Shown here: piece by piece, positions 43,110 through 48,470 of the stretch
Layout of the letters: each line of letters starts with the position of its first letter
Numbering within the stretch: position 1 is the stretch's first letter
Assembly: GCA_021795355.1 (NCBI GenBank)
Contig: JAJYPL010000001.1
Coordinates: 1-64,000, forward strand
Reading direction: 5' to 3'
Source of the DNA: a bacterium
GTDB taxonomy: Bacteria; SZUA-79; Acidulodesulfobacterales; Acidulodesulfobacteraceae
Length of the DNA stretch: 64,000 nt
The notes under the pieces: generated by a model
The model's input: the letters and a program-made list of their open reading frames with translations, nothing else
Databases searched by the model: none
What the model was told of the DNA's origin: nothing
Program-made: the position numbers and the translations under genes

Positions 43110-43550
43110 ATGTCGTCCAAGATTAGCGGATGCGATATTCCGGAGGATTTATACTACAGTGTAGAAAAACACGTGTGGGGAAAATTAGGCGACGACGGAA
43201 TAGTTACCGTCGGAATGACGAGCGTAGCTCAAAGCTTAGCCGGTAAACTTTTATACCTTACTCCTAAAAAAGTCGGCCAAAAGATAGCCCAGCTTAAATC
43301 CGTAGCAACGGTGGAAAGCGGAAAATACGTCGGTCCGGTTCCTGCTCCGTTTTCCGGAGAAATAACGGCAATAAACGAAGATGCCGTTAAAAACGTATCC
43401 TTAATAAATTCCGACCCTTACGGCAAAGGATGGGTATGCAGGATTAAAGCCGATAACATAGAAGCAGATAAAAAAAATCTGCTTACGGGAAAAGAGGCGG
43501 TAGAAGCCTACAAGAAAAAGATTGAAGCCGACGGCATTAAGTGCGAATAA
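43110..43550 (+). CDS. lbpA: GcvH-like lipoate-binding protein, LbpA-type (copy 1)
   Basis: 'CDIPEDLYYSVEKHVWGKLGDDGIVTVGMTSVAQSLAGKLLYLTPKKVGQ' and lipoyl-lysine motif 'VESGKYVGP'; SD 'aaggagg'. Confidence 0.88.
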   Translation: MSSKISGCDIPEDLYYSVEKHVWGKLGDDGIVTVGMTSVAQSLAGKLLYLTPKKVGQKIAQLKSVATVESGKYVGPVPAPFSGEITAINEDAVKNVSLINSDPYGKGWVCRIKADNIEADKKNLLTGKEAVEAYKKKIEADGIKCE

Positions 43551-43596: not shown

Positions 43597-44043
43597 ATGC
43601 CTATTTTTAATGAATGCAATCTGCCGGAAGACCTCTATTACGATATTGAAAATCAGGTTTGGGGCAGAAAAAACGGCGACGGAACTTTTACTTTCGGCAT
43701 GACGGATCCGGCGCAGTCTTTAGCCGGCAAGATTCTTTACGCAGACGTTAAAGCCGTCGGCAAAATTATAAAAAAAGGGAAAAGCGCCGCTACAATCGAA
43801 AGCGGAAAATACGTCGGTCCTTTTCCGATGCCTTTTGCCGGCGAAATAGTAGAGGTGAATAAGGAGCTTGAAAACGATTCTCACATTATAAACGCAGATC
43901 CGTACGGAAAAGGCTGGATTGTAAAATTAAAGCCTCTTCCCGAGTCGGTTTCGGACGTAAATTCCCTTCCTTTCGGCGAAGAAGCCGTCAAAGCCTACGT
44001 AAAAAAGCTCGAAAAGGAAGACATAATCTGCAAAAAGAGATAA
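43597..44043 (+). CDS. lbpA: GcvH-like lipoate-binding protein, LbpA-type (copy 2)
   Basis: Paralogue of 43110-43550: 'CNLPEDLYYDIENQVWGRKNGDGTFTFGMTDPAQSLAGKILYADVKAVGK', 'IESGKYVGP'. Confidence 0.88.
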   Translation: MPIFNECNLPEDLYYDIENQVWGRKNGDGTFTFGMTDPAQSLAGKILYADVKAVGKIIKKGKSAATIESGKYVGPFPMPFAGEIVEVNKELENDSHIINADPYGKGWIVKLKPLPESVSDVNSLPFGEEAVKAYVKKLEKEDIICKKR

Positions 44044-44045
44044 AT

Positions 44046-45056
44046 ATGAGTTTTTATGAATATAACGAAATTATCGACGAAGAATATGCAGAAGGTTTCG
44101 AAATCAGAAAAGATTATTTCGATTCTGAAATAAATTTTTACGCTCCAAGTATAAAATCTTACGAGACGGAAGATTTTAAAAACACTAAGTCCGACTCCTT
44201 CCCCCCTTTTTCCATTACGGGCGGTTCATGCTCTTTAAAATGCGAACACTGCAATGCGGAAATTTTAAAATCTATGGCTCCGGCTTTAACTCCGGACGAA
44301 CTGTTCGAAAGAGCCGATGCTATTAATAAATCCGGAGGGCTGGGTTTTCTTCTTAGCGGCGGTTCTAACAGCAAAGGAATAGTAGATATTCTGCCTTATA
44401 TAAAAGCTATCAAAAAGATAAAATCGGAATTAAACCTTAAGGTAATAGTACATTGCGGACTTATCACGGAAGAGATAGCCGACGGGCTTTTAGAAGCCGG
44501 AGTGGACTCCGCCATGCTCGATATTATCGGCGAAGAAGATACGATACGTAAAATTTATCATCTTAACGCAGAAGTTAAAGACTATGAAAATTCCTTAAAA
44601 TATTTATCCGACAGAAAAATTCCCTGCTCGCCGCACGTAGTAATAGGGCTGAAACACGGCGTAATAGCGGGAGAATTTAACGCAATAGATATTATATCCG
44701 ATTACGATATATCGTCGCTTGTATTGGTCGGTTTTATGCCTATGCACAATACGAAAATGGAAAACATAATTCCGCCGGCCGCAGAAGAGATAGGAGAGGT
44801 TTTTTTATATGCGCGGAAAAAATTTATTAAAACTCCGGTTCTTTTAGGCTGCGAAAGGCCGTACGGATTGAGCAAGTTTAAAATAGAAGAACTTGCCGTA
44901 AAAGCCGGTTTAAACGGAATAGCGTATCCGTCGGAAGGAATAATTCCTTTCAGCGTAAAATTAGGTTTAAAACCCAAATTTTCCGAGGTATGCTGTTCTT
45001 TAATTTTTTCCGAATCGGCTCTGCCGGTAATAGAAACAGGCAATTTAATCTGCTGA
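44046..45056 (+). CDS. Radical SAM protein, candidate LipS-type (LipS2-like) lipoyl sulfur-insertion enzyme
   Basis: CxxxCxxC in 'GGSCSLKCEHCNAEI'; TIM-barrel pattern 'GGLGFLLSGGSNSKGIVDILPYIKAIKKIKSELNLKVIVHCGLI'; follows lbpA by 3 bp. Confidence 0.72.
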   Translation: MSFYEYNEIIDEEYAEGFEIRKDYFDSEINFYAPSIKSYETEDFKNTKSDSFPPFSITGGSCSLKCEHCNAEILKSMAPALTPDELFERADAINKSGGLGFLLSGGSNSKGIVDILPYIKAIKKIKSELNLKVIVHCGLITEEIADGLLEAGVDSAMLDIIGEEDTIRKIYHLNAEVKDYENSLKYLSDRKIPCSPHVVIGLKHGVIAGEFNAIDIISDYDISSLVLVGFMPMHNTKMENIIPPAAEEIGEVFLYARKKFIKTPVLLGCERPYGLSKFKIEELAVKAGLNGIAYPSEGIIPFSVKLGLKPKFSEVCCSLIFSESALPVIETGNLIC

Positions 45057-45197
45057 AGCCTAATAGCCGCGCGTAAATATATCGCATTTATATGAACGAT
45101 TATTATATAATAATTTTAAATTAAGCACTTGCAAGGCGAGATTGGCGAGCTTCGCCGGACTCAGTCCGACGCGCTCGCAGCGACTAATTTATTGCGT

Positions 45198-46745
45198 ATG
45201 TTTAGAGTTATAGACACGGGCTTAAAAGATTTCTCTTATAATATATGTATGGATAAAGCCCTGATAAAATTAAGAAAAGAAGGGCTGATAGAGGACACTT
45301 TCCGTTTTTTAAGATTCGAACCCTGCGTTTTAACCGGCTACCATCAGTCCATATCCAGCGAAATAAGATTAGATTACTGCAAAGAAAAAAATATAGCCGT
45401 CGGCAGAAGAATTACCGGAGGCGGAGCTATATATTTCGACGAAGCCCAGCTTGGCTGGGAGCTTGTATTTTCGGCTAAAAGCATTAAAATTAAAAATTTG
45501 GACGATTTGACCGAAAATATATGCTCTGCTTTTGCAAAAGGAATAAAAAAGCTTGGGATAAATGCCGAATTCAGGCCCAGAAACGATATAGAAGTCGAAG
45601 GGCGCAAAATATCCGGAACAGGAGGAACTTACGAATCTTCGGTTTATTTTTTTCAGGGAACGCTGCTTTTGGATTTCAATCCGGAAAATATGGTAAAATC
45701 CTTAAAAATACCTATAGAAAAGCTGACCGTTAAGAATTTTGACTCTATTTTATCGAGGGTTACTTCGGTGAAAAGTATTTTAGGGTATATACCGGATTTA
45801 GATTCTATAAAATCTGCAGTTTTAGACGGTTTCAGGGAACATTTAAATTTAGATTTTTACGAATCGGAAATCTCGAAGGAAGAGGAAAATTTTTTAAATA
45901 AAAACCGTTCTTTTTATTCTTCGGAAGATTGGATTTATTCAAAAGATTTCGACCCGGCGGAAACAAAAATAATTTCCGAAATATATAAATGCGCAGGAGG
46001 AGTTTTTAAAACCTTCGCAAAGGTTGATGAAAAAAGAAATTTATTAAAATATATTTATTTTACCGGAGATTTTTTCGTTTCCCCAGTAAGGACGGTCAAC
46101 GACTTAGAAAGCAGCCTTAAAGACGTTCCGCTGGATGAAGCGGTATTTAAAATAGACGGTTATTTTGAAAAATTTAAGCCCGAATTTCGCAGCGTAAAGA
46201 AAGAAGATTTTTTTAATATAATTATTCAAATAATAAATAAAGTCAAGTTTCTTAAAAACGCAGACGTAAAAGAAGAAGATTTATCGAGATTTACATTCGT
46301 AAACGGAATGGATGCCGAAGATATTTCTTCGGCGGAATATATTTTGCTTCCTTACTGCGCTAAAAAACCGGACTGCGAATTTAGAAACAAAGATAAATGT
46401 ATCGCCTGCGGCGAATGCGAAACCGGTATAGCTTATAAATTTGCGGAAAAATACGGAATTATTCCAAAAACCGTCATAAGTTACGAAAATTTGGCAGAAA
46501 CTTTAAAAGAACTGAAAATAAAAGGGATTAAATCTTATATAGGCTTCTGCTGTAAAGAATTTTATATAAAAAGAAACGAAGCGTTTAAAAACAGCGGCAT
46601 AAAAGCTCTGTTAATCGATATTTCTTCTCCGTTATGCTACAAATATAAAAAAGAAACCGATGCCTACGAAGGCAGGTTTGACGGGGAAACTACTCTCGGC
46701 GCACGCGTTTTATTTAAAATTTTTAAAAATAATTCCTTATCATAA
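45198..46745 (+). CDS. Lipoate-protein ligase (LplA/LplB-type domains) fused to a C-terminal Cys-rich DUF116-like domain; sLpl(AB)-like
   Basis: 'RRITGGGAIYFDEAQLGWELVFSAK', 'RNDIEVEGRKISGTGG' are LplA catalytic motifs; C-term 'LPYCAKKPDCEFRNKDKCIACGECETG...IGFCCKEF'. The ORF-track start at 45129 lies within a repeat-like segment; ATG 45198 preferred. Confidence 0.82.
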   Translation: MFRVIDTGLKDFSYNICMDKALIKLRKEGLIEDTFRFLRFEPCVLTGYHQSISSEIRLDYCKEKNIAVGRRITGGGAIYFDEAQLGWELVFSAKSIKIKNLDDLTENICSAFAKGIKKLGINAEFRPRNDIEVEGRKISGTGGTYESSVYFFQGTLLLDFNPENMVKSLKIPIEKLTVKNFDSILSRVTSVKSILGYIPDLDSIKSAVLDGFREHLNLDFYESEISKEEENFLNKNRSFYSSEDWIYSKDFDPAETKIISEIYKCAGGVFKTFAKVDEKRNLLKYIYFTGDFFVSPVRTVNDLESSLKDVPLDEAVFKIDGYFEKFKPEFRSVKKEDFFNIIIQIINKVKFLKNADVKEEDLSRFTFVNGMDAEDISSAEYILLPYCAKKPDCEFRNKDKCIACGECETGIAYKFAEKYGIIPKTVISYENLAETLKELKIKGIKSYIGFCCKEFYIKRNEAFKNSGIKALLIDISSPLCYKYKKETDAYEGRFDGETTLGARVLFKIFKNNSLS

Positions 46746-46770: not shown

Positions 46771-47916
46771 ATGAACGAACTAACGGGATATGCGAATGCC
46801 GAGACTGCAAAAAAATTTGATTTCGTCTGCGGATGCAATGAAAATAATGAAATATTCAAAGAAATAGAGAGCAAAAAAAATGCAGATATTTCCGGAAGTT
46901 CTCCCGAATATTTAAAGGTGAGCCTGGCAGCTGCGATGACTATGGATTTCGTGCCGGGTATTTTTTACCGCAGCGCCTGTCTCCATTGTATAAACGTTCT
47001 TTTGACTTACGAAGAAGGGTGCAGGGCAAATTGCGCTTATTGCGGGCTTCAAAAATCCCGGGAAGGCGGTTATAACGATAAGAGTTTTATAAGGGTCGAT
47101 TGGCCGGCATATAGAACCGACGATATAATAGCATCTACTTTAAAAAAGAAAAAAATAGTGGACAGGATTTGTATTTCCATGATAACGCATGAAAAGGCTA
47201 AAGACGACACTTTTAATATTTTAAAAAGATTTTCCGGCGAACTGCACTGTCCGGTTTCCATACTTATGACTCCGACTATATTAAAACACGAAGATATAGA
47301 CAGATTCAAAGAATACGGAGCCGATATGGTTACCGTGGCGCTCGATGCCGCAACGCCTGAGCTGTTCGACGAATACAGAGGCAGAGGAGTGGGAGGTCCG
47401 CACAGATGGGAAAAATATAACGATACTCTGGAATATTCCGTTTCGGTTTTCGGCAAAAATAAAGTAGGATGCCATTTAGTCGTCGGACTTGGAGAAACGG
47501 AAAAAGAAATGGCAGAAAGAATGCAGTCGGTAAGAGATAAAGGAGCAAGATCTCATCTTTTTTCTTTTTATCAGGAAAAAGGATCTAAATTGGAAAACCA
47601 TCCTCAATGTCCTGCCGGCCAGTACAGAAGAATTCAGGTCGCAAGGCATATAATAGACTACGATATGGGAAGAGCGGAAGATATGAAATTTGACGAAAGC
47701 GGGAAAATAATAGATTTTGGAATACCTTTTAAAAACGTTGCCGAAATAGTAGAAAGAGGCGCCGCTTTCCAGACTACGGGCTGCCCCGGCAGAACCGAAA
47801 TTTCCGCCTGCAACAGGCCGTTCGGCGACTCGTCTCCAAAAAATATCAGGAGTTTTCCTTTTGAGCTTAACGCCGCCGACGTAAACAGAATGAGAAAGGA
47901 ACTGCTGGAATATTAA
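46771..47916 (+). CDS. Radical SAM protein, candidate LipS-type (LipS1-like) lipoyl sulfur-insertion enzyme
   Basis: 'CLHCINVLLTYEEGCRANCAYCGLQKS' (CxxxCxxC plus upstream CxxC), 'GCHLVVGLGETEKEM', C-term 'TGCPGRTEISACNRPFGDSSP'. ATG 46771 follows SD 'ggagg'. Confidence 0.75.
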   Translation: MNELTGYANAETAKKFDFVCGCNENNEIFKEIESKKNADISGSSPEYLKVSLAAAMTMDFVPGIFYRSACLHCINVLLTYEEGCRANCAYCGLQKSREGGYNDKSFIRVDWPAYRTDDIIASTLKKKKIVDRICISMITHEKAKDDTFNILKRFSGELHCPVSILMTPTILKHEDIDRFKEYGADMVTVALDAATPELFDEYRGRGVGGPHRWEKYNDTLEYSVSVFGKNKVGCHLVVGLGETEKEMAERMQSVRDKGARSHLFSFYQEKGSKLENHPQCPAGQYRRIQVARHIIDYDMGRAEDMKFDESGKIIDFGIPFKNVAEIVERGAAFQTTGCPGRTEISACNRPFGDSSPKNIRSFPFELNAADVNRMRKELLEY

Positions 47917-48005: not shown

Positions 48006-48470
48006 TTGGACGAAGCGGAATTAGTCAATGTCAAAGTTAAGCATTTACATAATTTGCAAAATCAGATTATTACGGAAAAACATACGATGATAACGGACGA
48101 GCCGGAGGCTTCGGGCGGCGACGAACTTGCGATTAATCCGATAGAGCTTGTGCTTGGAGGAGAAGGTTCGTGCACTATTTCCGTGCTCATGATGTTTGCA
48201 AAAAGAATGAAGTACGACCTGCAGGGCGTAGAAATAAATCTCACTCACAAAAGGGTCAGAGTCGAAGAACTAAAGGAATCCGGGATTGAAATAGACGACG
48301 AAAGGGGTTACGTCCATAAAATAGAGAAAAAAATAAAATTTATAGGAAATTTAGACGACGACCAGATAGAAGAGCTTCAAAGGGTTTCGCAGAGATGTCC
48401 AGTGCATAGCATGATAGAAAAACGGACATATTTTGAAATTTCATTCGATAATGCGGAAAACAATTTGTGA
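48006..48470 (+). CDS. OsmC family protein (peroxiredoxin-like/unknown substrate)
   Basis: 'GGDELAINPIELVLGGEGSCTISVLMMFAKRMKYDLQGVEINL', second Cys 'SQRCPVHSMIEKR'. Confidence 0.82.
   Translation: MDEAELVNVKVKHLHNLQNQIITEKHTMITDEPEASGGDELAINPIELVLGGEGSCTISVLMMFAKRMKYDLQGVEINLTHKRVRVEELKESGIEIDDERGYVHKIEKKIKFIGNLDDDQIEELQRVSQRCPVHSMIEKRTYFEISFDNAENNL

Follow-up and report, generated by a model that had tools for sequence, protein, structure and literature searches.

Results

The window, by which we mean the whole 64,000-nucleotide stretch of DNA that was analyzed, contains an operon encoding two LbpA-like proteins, LipS1, a lipoate-protein ligase fused to a DUF116 domain, LipS2, and an OsmC-family protein (Table 1). 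This operon is conserved in the window's family, including “Candidatus Acididesulfobacter diazotrophicus.” The open reading frame of the fusion as listed (45129-46745) begins with a TTG at 45129 that is not conserved among relatives; the ATG at 45198 is the start common to relatives of the ligase-DUF116 gene.

Table 1. Genes, domains, and cysteine motifs of the lipoate operon in the window
Feature	Position	Strand	Basis or remark
GcvH-like lipoate-binding protein 1 (LbpA-like)	43110..43550	+	ESGK lipoylation-site motif
GcvH-like lipoate-binding protein 2 (LbpA-like)	43597..44043	+	ESGK motif
LipS1-type radical SAM lipoyl synthase	44046..45056	+	Cysteines C62 C66 C69, C269 C316 C317
Lipoate-protein ligase–DUF116 fusion gene	45198..46745	+	515 aa from conserved ATG
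LplA/B catalytic domain (PF21948), residues 13-212	45234..45833	+	Pfam E 1.9e-44
LplB-like accessory domain, residues 276-342	46023..46223	+	Weak PF10437, Foldseek alignments to two-domain ligases
DUF116 core, residues 378-481 (Pfam match)	46329..46640	+	Rossmann-like alpha/beta model reaches ~residue 515
Five-cysteine segment C387-x5-C393-x7-C401-x2-C404-x2-C407	46356..46418	+	Sequence, alignment
C451-C452 pair (GFCC)	46548..46553	+	C451 specific to ligase-linked subfamily
C480 (PLC)	46635..46637	+	Sequence, alignment
LipS2-type radical SAM lipoyl synthase	46771..47916	+	Cysteines C84 C88 C91, C134 C338 C347
OsmC-family protein	48006..48470	+	Directly after LipS2; kept in most family loci

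The LipS1 and LipS2 neighbors score below the cut-offs of NF053742 (222.1 bits versus 230) and NF053743 (217.5 bits versus 270), respectively, but these models are nevertheless their best matches. The NCBIfam cut-off was reached in only 1 of the 33 LipS2-bearing genomes of the Desulfobacterota sample described below. Elsewhere in the window's genome, a Fer4-CCG-FAD-hypothetical-Fer4-CCG gene order (L207:4530-10085, contig C45) corresponds to shdrC1-B1-A-hyp-C2-B2 and fits sHdr. Judged by these genes, the organism probably oxidizes sulfur by sHdr, and the operon product would therefore probably be lipoyl-LbpA for sulfur oxidation. Canonical LipA is also encoded in this genome (G000:C26:45700-46626), as in most of the family, so that two lipoate routes coexist in one genome. 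OsmC/Ohr proteins are able to use lipoylated proteins as reductant, and the OsmC protein may draw on the LbpA produced by the operon.

The ligase half of the fusion retains the invariant motifs RRxTGGG and NDxExxGxKxSG (N129, D130, E132, K137, S139, and G140), which leaves its catalytic motifs intact, and matches LplA structures in Foldseek (E 2.6e-23). Its motifs and predicted fold mark it as a lipoate-protein ligase, putatively of the sLpl(AB) type, with predicted activity. The LplB-like part falls below the cut-offs of both PF10437 (18.1 bits versus 24) and the LplB model NF053749 (30.5 versus 65).

The C-terminal part had been described in a preliminary description as a DUF116-type module with the cysteine motif C-x5-C-x7-C-x2-C-x2-C followed by GFCC and PLC. 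The motif matches the 515-aa sequence exactly, and the family assignment is borne out by Pfam (PF01976, E 6.8e-7, 29.3 bits with a gathering cut-off of 25, match to positions 39-142 of the 155-position profile) and by profile-profile comparison with canonical DUF116 (hhalign probability 95%, E 3e-8, 100 columns). All eight cysteines are kept in 86/86 aligned sequences from many phyla and the spacing of the first five in 84/86, a degree of conservation that, for aligned sequences of ligase-linked DUF116, is far beyond chance. Seven of them align with canonical cysteines, and the eighth, C451, the first of the CC pair, has no aligned canonical counterpart and marks the ligase-linked subfamily. 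Ligase-type and canonical DUF116 separate cleanly by score (>165 versus <36 bits). The ligase-linked domain is a distinct DUF116 subfamily, one tied to LipS1/LipS2 by the genome and tree data given below. The window's genome also carries a canonical stand-alone DUF116 protein adjoining fmt, and the fused DUF116 is thus a second, different copy. Stand-alone DUF116/COG1852/arCOG02078 proteins are homologous to the fused domain over the ∼100 columns and seven cysteines given above. The arCOG02078 membrane proteins have transmembrane segments N-terminal to the globular domain (PMC5898192). In contrast, the fused domain is preceded by the ligase, its profile match begins only at position 39, no N-terminal transmembrane part is present, and it has the eighth invariant cysteine.

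AlphaFold2 modeled the full-length fusion with a pLDDT of 88 and a pTM of 0.65, and the DUF116 domain alone with a pLDDT of 87.9 and a pTM of 0.84. In the model, a first strand leads into the long cysteine loop and a helix; a second strand and helix come next, then a third strand with CC and a helix behind it, and finally a fourth strand before the last Cys. Strands 1, 3, and 4 of a Rossmann-like sheet would accordingly each be followed by cysteines, all along the same edge. Argued from this strand order, C14 with its loop, the C78-C79 pair, and C107 (numbered within the domain) would sit at the C-terminal ends of strands on that edge. The model agrees with an earlier prediction that DUF116 is flavodoxin-like and acts in electron transfer (PMC5898192). 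No good homologue of the domain was found among solved structures by fold (best E 0.085), nor a convincing one by sequence in the PDB. The Pfam Fer4 match reached 15 bits against a cut-off of 21.1 over 12 residues only, and no NifU/Nfu family was among the Pfam matches up to E 1. The CC pair had raised the idea of a CCG/HdrB-like noncubane cluster domain, which was ruled out by an hhalign probability of 0.3% with PF02754.

The preliminary description had left room for the fusion to be a frameshift or assembly artifact missing from close relatives. It is genuine: every one of 21 loci from the window's family carries an unbroken fusion, which rules out such an artifact, and same-family genomes with an intact locus share it at 60 to 96% identity over the full protein (37% in a distant relative). 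A scan for the DUF116 part across 85,462 species genomes yielded 80 loci, a number that under-counts distant DUF116 forms because the scan used two short conserved peptides. These loci fall in Nitrospirota, Actinomycetota, Bacillota, Chloroflexota, Thermodesulfobacteriota, Sumerlaeota, Nitrospinota, Aquificota, Hydrothermarchaeota, Bathyarchaeota, and Thermoproteota, among others, so that the ligase-DUF116 fusion recurs in more than 10 bacterial and archaeal phyla beyond the window's own. A search of a plasmid collection gave no fusion match spanning 80% of the query.

DUF116 is in one frame with the ligase in 74 of the 80 loci. It is a gene of its own in Sporomusa (L100 and L107), beside lipS1/lipS2, and in an Aquificaceae genome (L097), beside the ligase; these split copies score 53.1 and 36.5 bits, respectively, against PF01976. 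A domain that is mostly fused, yet separate in these genomes, is what would be expected of a module working in one complex, as it would if the domain gathered LbpA, LipS1, and LipS2 with the ligase and used its cysteines to bind zinc or a structural cluster. Eight invariant cysteines, including CC and CxxCxxC, are more than docking requires, and other LipS systems do without the domain; we therefore regard a purely structural role as improbable.

Some loci of the scan depart from the usual arrangement. Acid-mine Proteobacteria (L068:6849-8423, L073:6840-8441, L074, and L081) have a second, diverged ligase-DUF116 fusion whose catalytic loop is without the SGTGG part, possibly a noncatalytic ligase that retains just the DUF116 role; two such genomes that were checked (L191 and L192) also carry a normal lbpA-lipS1-slpl-lipT-lipS2 cluster without DUF116. 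One Actinomycetes fusion has an in-frame stop within DUF116 (L090:8199-8201), after which the second half continues in the same frame, and a sequencing error, a split gene, or recoding would account for it. In Dethiosulfatarculus sandiegensis (L112:5710-8408), adjoining ligases, one with and one without DUF116, group together in the tree, which points to a recent duplication and domain loss.

The position of the fusion beside two radical SAM enzymes had been taken as a sign of a functional tie, with a phylogenetic profile proposed as a check. Among 198 genomes of the Desulfobacterota (the phylum of a Desulfarculus genome), LipS2 was found in 33, ligase-type DUF116 in 27, and both in 25, i.e., DUF116 was present in 25/33 genomes with LipS2 versus 2/165 without it (Fisher P = 1.3e-22, a value inflated by near-copies and kinship). 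Both LipS2-less carriers are explicable: the fusion of one (G179) lies on a 3.6-kb contig, and that of the other (G094) has LipS1 next door. Among 250 genomes of the Thermoproteota (the phylum of a Thermoprotei genome), 9/9 DUF116 carriers have LipS2, and LipS2 occurs in a further 90 that lack DUF116. A tree of 64 LipS2 proteins places 41/41 DUF116-linked rows inside one 49-member clade (support 100/99), in which a few DUF116 losses appear to have occurred. The DUF116 label requires three changes on this tree versus a shuffled mean of 19; tree statistics are inflated in the same way as co-occurrence, but the pattern is nonetheless the same in both prokaryotic domains. At 25 loci no complete lipS pair lies close by, but a clear LipS1 is encoded elsewhere in most of these genomes. 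The tie thus holds in the profile as well as in the phylogeny.

Cluster residues of LipS1 and LipS2 were taken from the literature (PMC9585515). The three radical-SAM (CxxxCxxC) and three auxiliary-cluster cysteines are 100% kept in both proteins in every group. This rules out that DUF116 supplies auxiliary ligands absent from LipS1/LipS2 and means that DUF116 is not required as a scaffold for their clusters. Scaffolding was among the roles in sulfur insertion that the preliminary description had suggested; Fe-S supply, also named there, is weighed below.

DUF116 is not universal for LipS1/LipS2, an idea ruled out by the many systems without the domain. It is missing from 19/19 gammaproteobacterial ligases, most of them in the gene order lbpA-lipS1-slpl-lipT-lipS2 of characterized sulfur oxidizers, and likewise from the bipartite ligases of archaea and from three loci in Desulfobacterota. 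Judging from these 19 loci, the biochemically studied sLpl(AB) would also lack it. DUF116 is therefore an accessory outside the minimal pathway. The ligase tree, in which the backbone lacks resolution, is compatible with either loss or original absence of the domain in gammaproteobacterial sLpl; one well-placed ligase without DUF116 (L143) groups with fused ligases (100/99), which looks like a loss.

The same distribution bears on the idea that DUF116 is a redox sensor, whose oxygen- or redox-sensitive clusters would switch the ligase so that octanoylation takes place only when LipS1/LipS2 are functional. Fusion to the committing step and the DUF116-free ligases of gammaproteobacterial sulfur oxidizers are consistent with such a switch, but a separate gene in Sporomusa and Aquificaceae fits poorly with an intramolecular one, and the acid-mine family of the window also carries the domain. 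We consider a sensor highly improbable.

A flavoprotein of the geranylgeranyl-reductase family (TIGR02032) lies beside the ligase or lipS genes in 39 of the 59 loci outside the window's family. By gene order and description, this protein corresponds to LipT, for which Tanabe et al. 2023 proposed a role as the electron source for LipS1/S2 (PMC10332631). Within the window's family, lipT is in the operon in 0/21 loci, and a profile search detected an unlinked LipT-like protein in 21/21 searched relatives (best matches, 242 to 298 bits), with the PVQCAEF motif present in those that were read. Neither single-sequence nor profile searches found LipT in the genome to which the window belongs, an assembly of just 66% completeness; the view that LipT is missing in the lineage, derived from the single-sequence search of this genome, was withdrawn on the strength of the profile matches in relatives. 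LipT adjacency may reflect a ligase-LipT link instead of a DUF116-LipT link. The unlinked LipT-like gene (L210:5900-7015, L211, L212, and L213) occupies a conserved region in the window's family, with neighbors that, named from sequence starts, are ornithine carbamoyltransferase-like, argininosuccinate synthase-like, and polyprenyl-synthase-like.

Discussion

What the data show directly is that ligase and DUF116 are fused, that the cysteines are invariant, that the domain is tied to LipS1/LipS2 both in genomes and in phylogeny, and that LipT is present alongside. We consider it very likely that DUF116 is an Fe-S or metal accessory of the LipS1/LipS2 pathway. LipS1/LipS2 give about one turnover with a physiological reductant (∼1 to 1.5) because the auxiliary cluster, the source of sulfur, is consumed (PMC9585515). 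Given this consumption and SAM cleavage, the LipS pathway needs both new clusters and electrons, and a cysteine-rich domain fused to the enzyme predicted to produce the octanoyl substrate suits either.

Our tentative preference, which falls only just short of an even chance, is that DUF116 relays electrons to LipS1/LipS2; we infer Fe-S binding, the relay, and the direction of flow. The ligase half would activate octanoate or lipoate with ATP and then load it onto LbpA, the GcvH-like carrier. DUF116, being tethered, would then adjoin the modified carrier, where LipS2/LipS1 would insert sulfur at C8/C6, and, like a ferredoxin, would take up low-potential electrons from LipT (or a ferredoxin) and hand them to LipS1/LipS2 to drive SAM cleavage. 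This reading is favored by the regular co-occurrence of LipT, a CxxCxxC resembling that of ferredoxins, the earlier electron-transfer prediction for DUF116, and the precedent of the LipT-related flavoprotein GGR of Methanosarcina acetivorans, which requires a specific ferredoxin encoded at its own locus (PMC10821996). Such a relay is not obligatory, because the gammaproteobacterial sulfur oxidizers have LipT and LipS1/LipS2 but no DUF116 (19/19). It is also disfavored by the lack of DUF116 in most archaeal LipS systems and of any solved structure resembling the domain, and by eight cysteines, which exceed the need of one ferredoxin-type cluster.

Cluster or sulfur supply ranks close behind the electron relay, although we think it rather unlikely. 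Here DUF116 would act in the manner of NfuA, as a carrier restoring the auxiliary [4Fe-4S] clusters that LipS1/LipS2 consume as sulfur donors. The low turnover cited above is in its favor, as are the tight linkage of DUF116 to LipS and the dependence of LipA on NfuA/NFU1 for the same reason (PMC9585516), and the LipS1/LipS2 of DUF116 carriers retain auxiliary ligands, so a need for restoration exists. On the other hand, Pfam shows no resemblance of DUF116 to Nfu or any other carrier, and many LipS systems are without the domain. Moreover, the clusters of carriers are usually labile and bound by few cysteines, whereas eight invariant ones suggest tight clusters.

A broader proposal covers both the electron relay and cluster supply: an Fe-S module of the DUF116 type, tethered to the ligase and acquired a single time in the common ancestor of a LipS2 clade, may re-arm LipS1/LipS2 with electrons and/or auxiliary clusters and thereby allow this lipoyl synthase to turn over catalytically, just as LipA does with NfuA. 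It would be a cross-domain, previously unrecognized component of lipoate biosynthesis; we put this forward as a speculation with somewhat less than an even chance of being correct.

The pathway and both domain families are already known, and the architecture of a ligase with a conserved Fe-S-like module may show in domain databases. Within the set of papers searched, none contained both DUF116 and lipoate, in agreement with the preliminary description, which knew of no defined function for the domain in lipoate biology, and just one referred to the family by its COG, arCOG, or Pfam number. DUF116, fused to a partner enzyme in both prokaryotic domains, is a candidate for how LipS1/LipS2 get reduced and their sacrificed clusters restored. 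If true, a DUF116 protein would for the first time have an assigned function, and the experimentally studied sLpl(AB) type may be missing a pathway component.

Among the closest known systems is sLpl(AB) (PMC10332631), which, like the window's ligase, has an LplA catalytic domain and lies beside lipS1, lipS2, and the GcvH-like LbpA; its LplB-like domain has a candidate counterpart in the window's ligase. The 19 same-order gammaproteobacterial ligases are mostly ∼360 to 400 aa, whereas the window's ligase adds a 140-aa cysteine-rich domain, and lipT lies outside the operon in the window's family. LipA with NfuA (PMC9585516) is likewise a sulfur-inserting radical SAM enzyme whose auxiliary cluster is restored by an accessory Fe-S protein, but DUF116 has no sequence similarity to Nfu, contains eight cysteines, and is joined to the ligase instead of the synthase. 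GGR and its ferredoxin (PMC10821996) pair a GGR-family flavoprotein with a dedicated Fe-S protein of the same locus, as proposed here for LipT and DUF116; the substrate and Fe-S fold differ, and for LipT and DUF116 the electron flow is one that we only infer.
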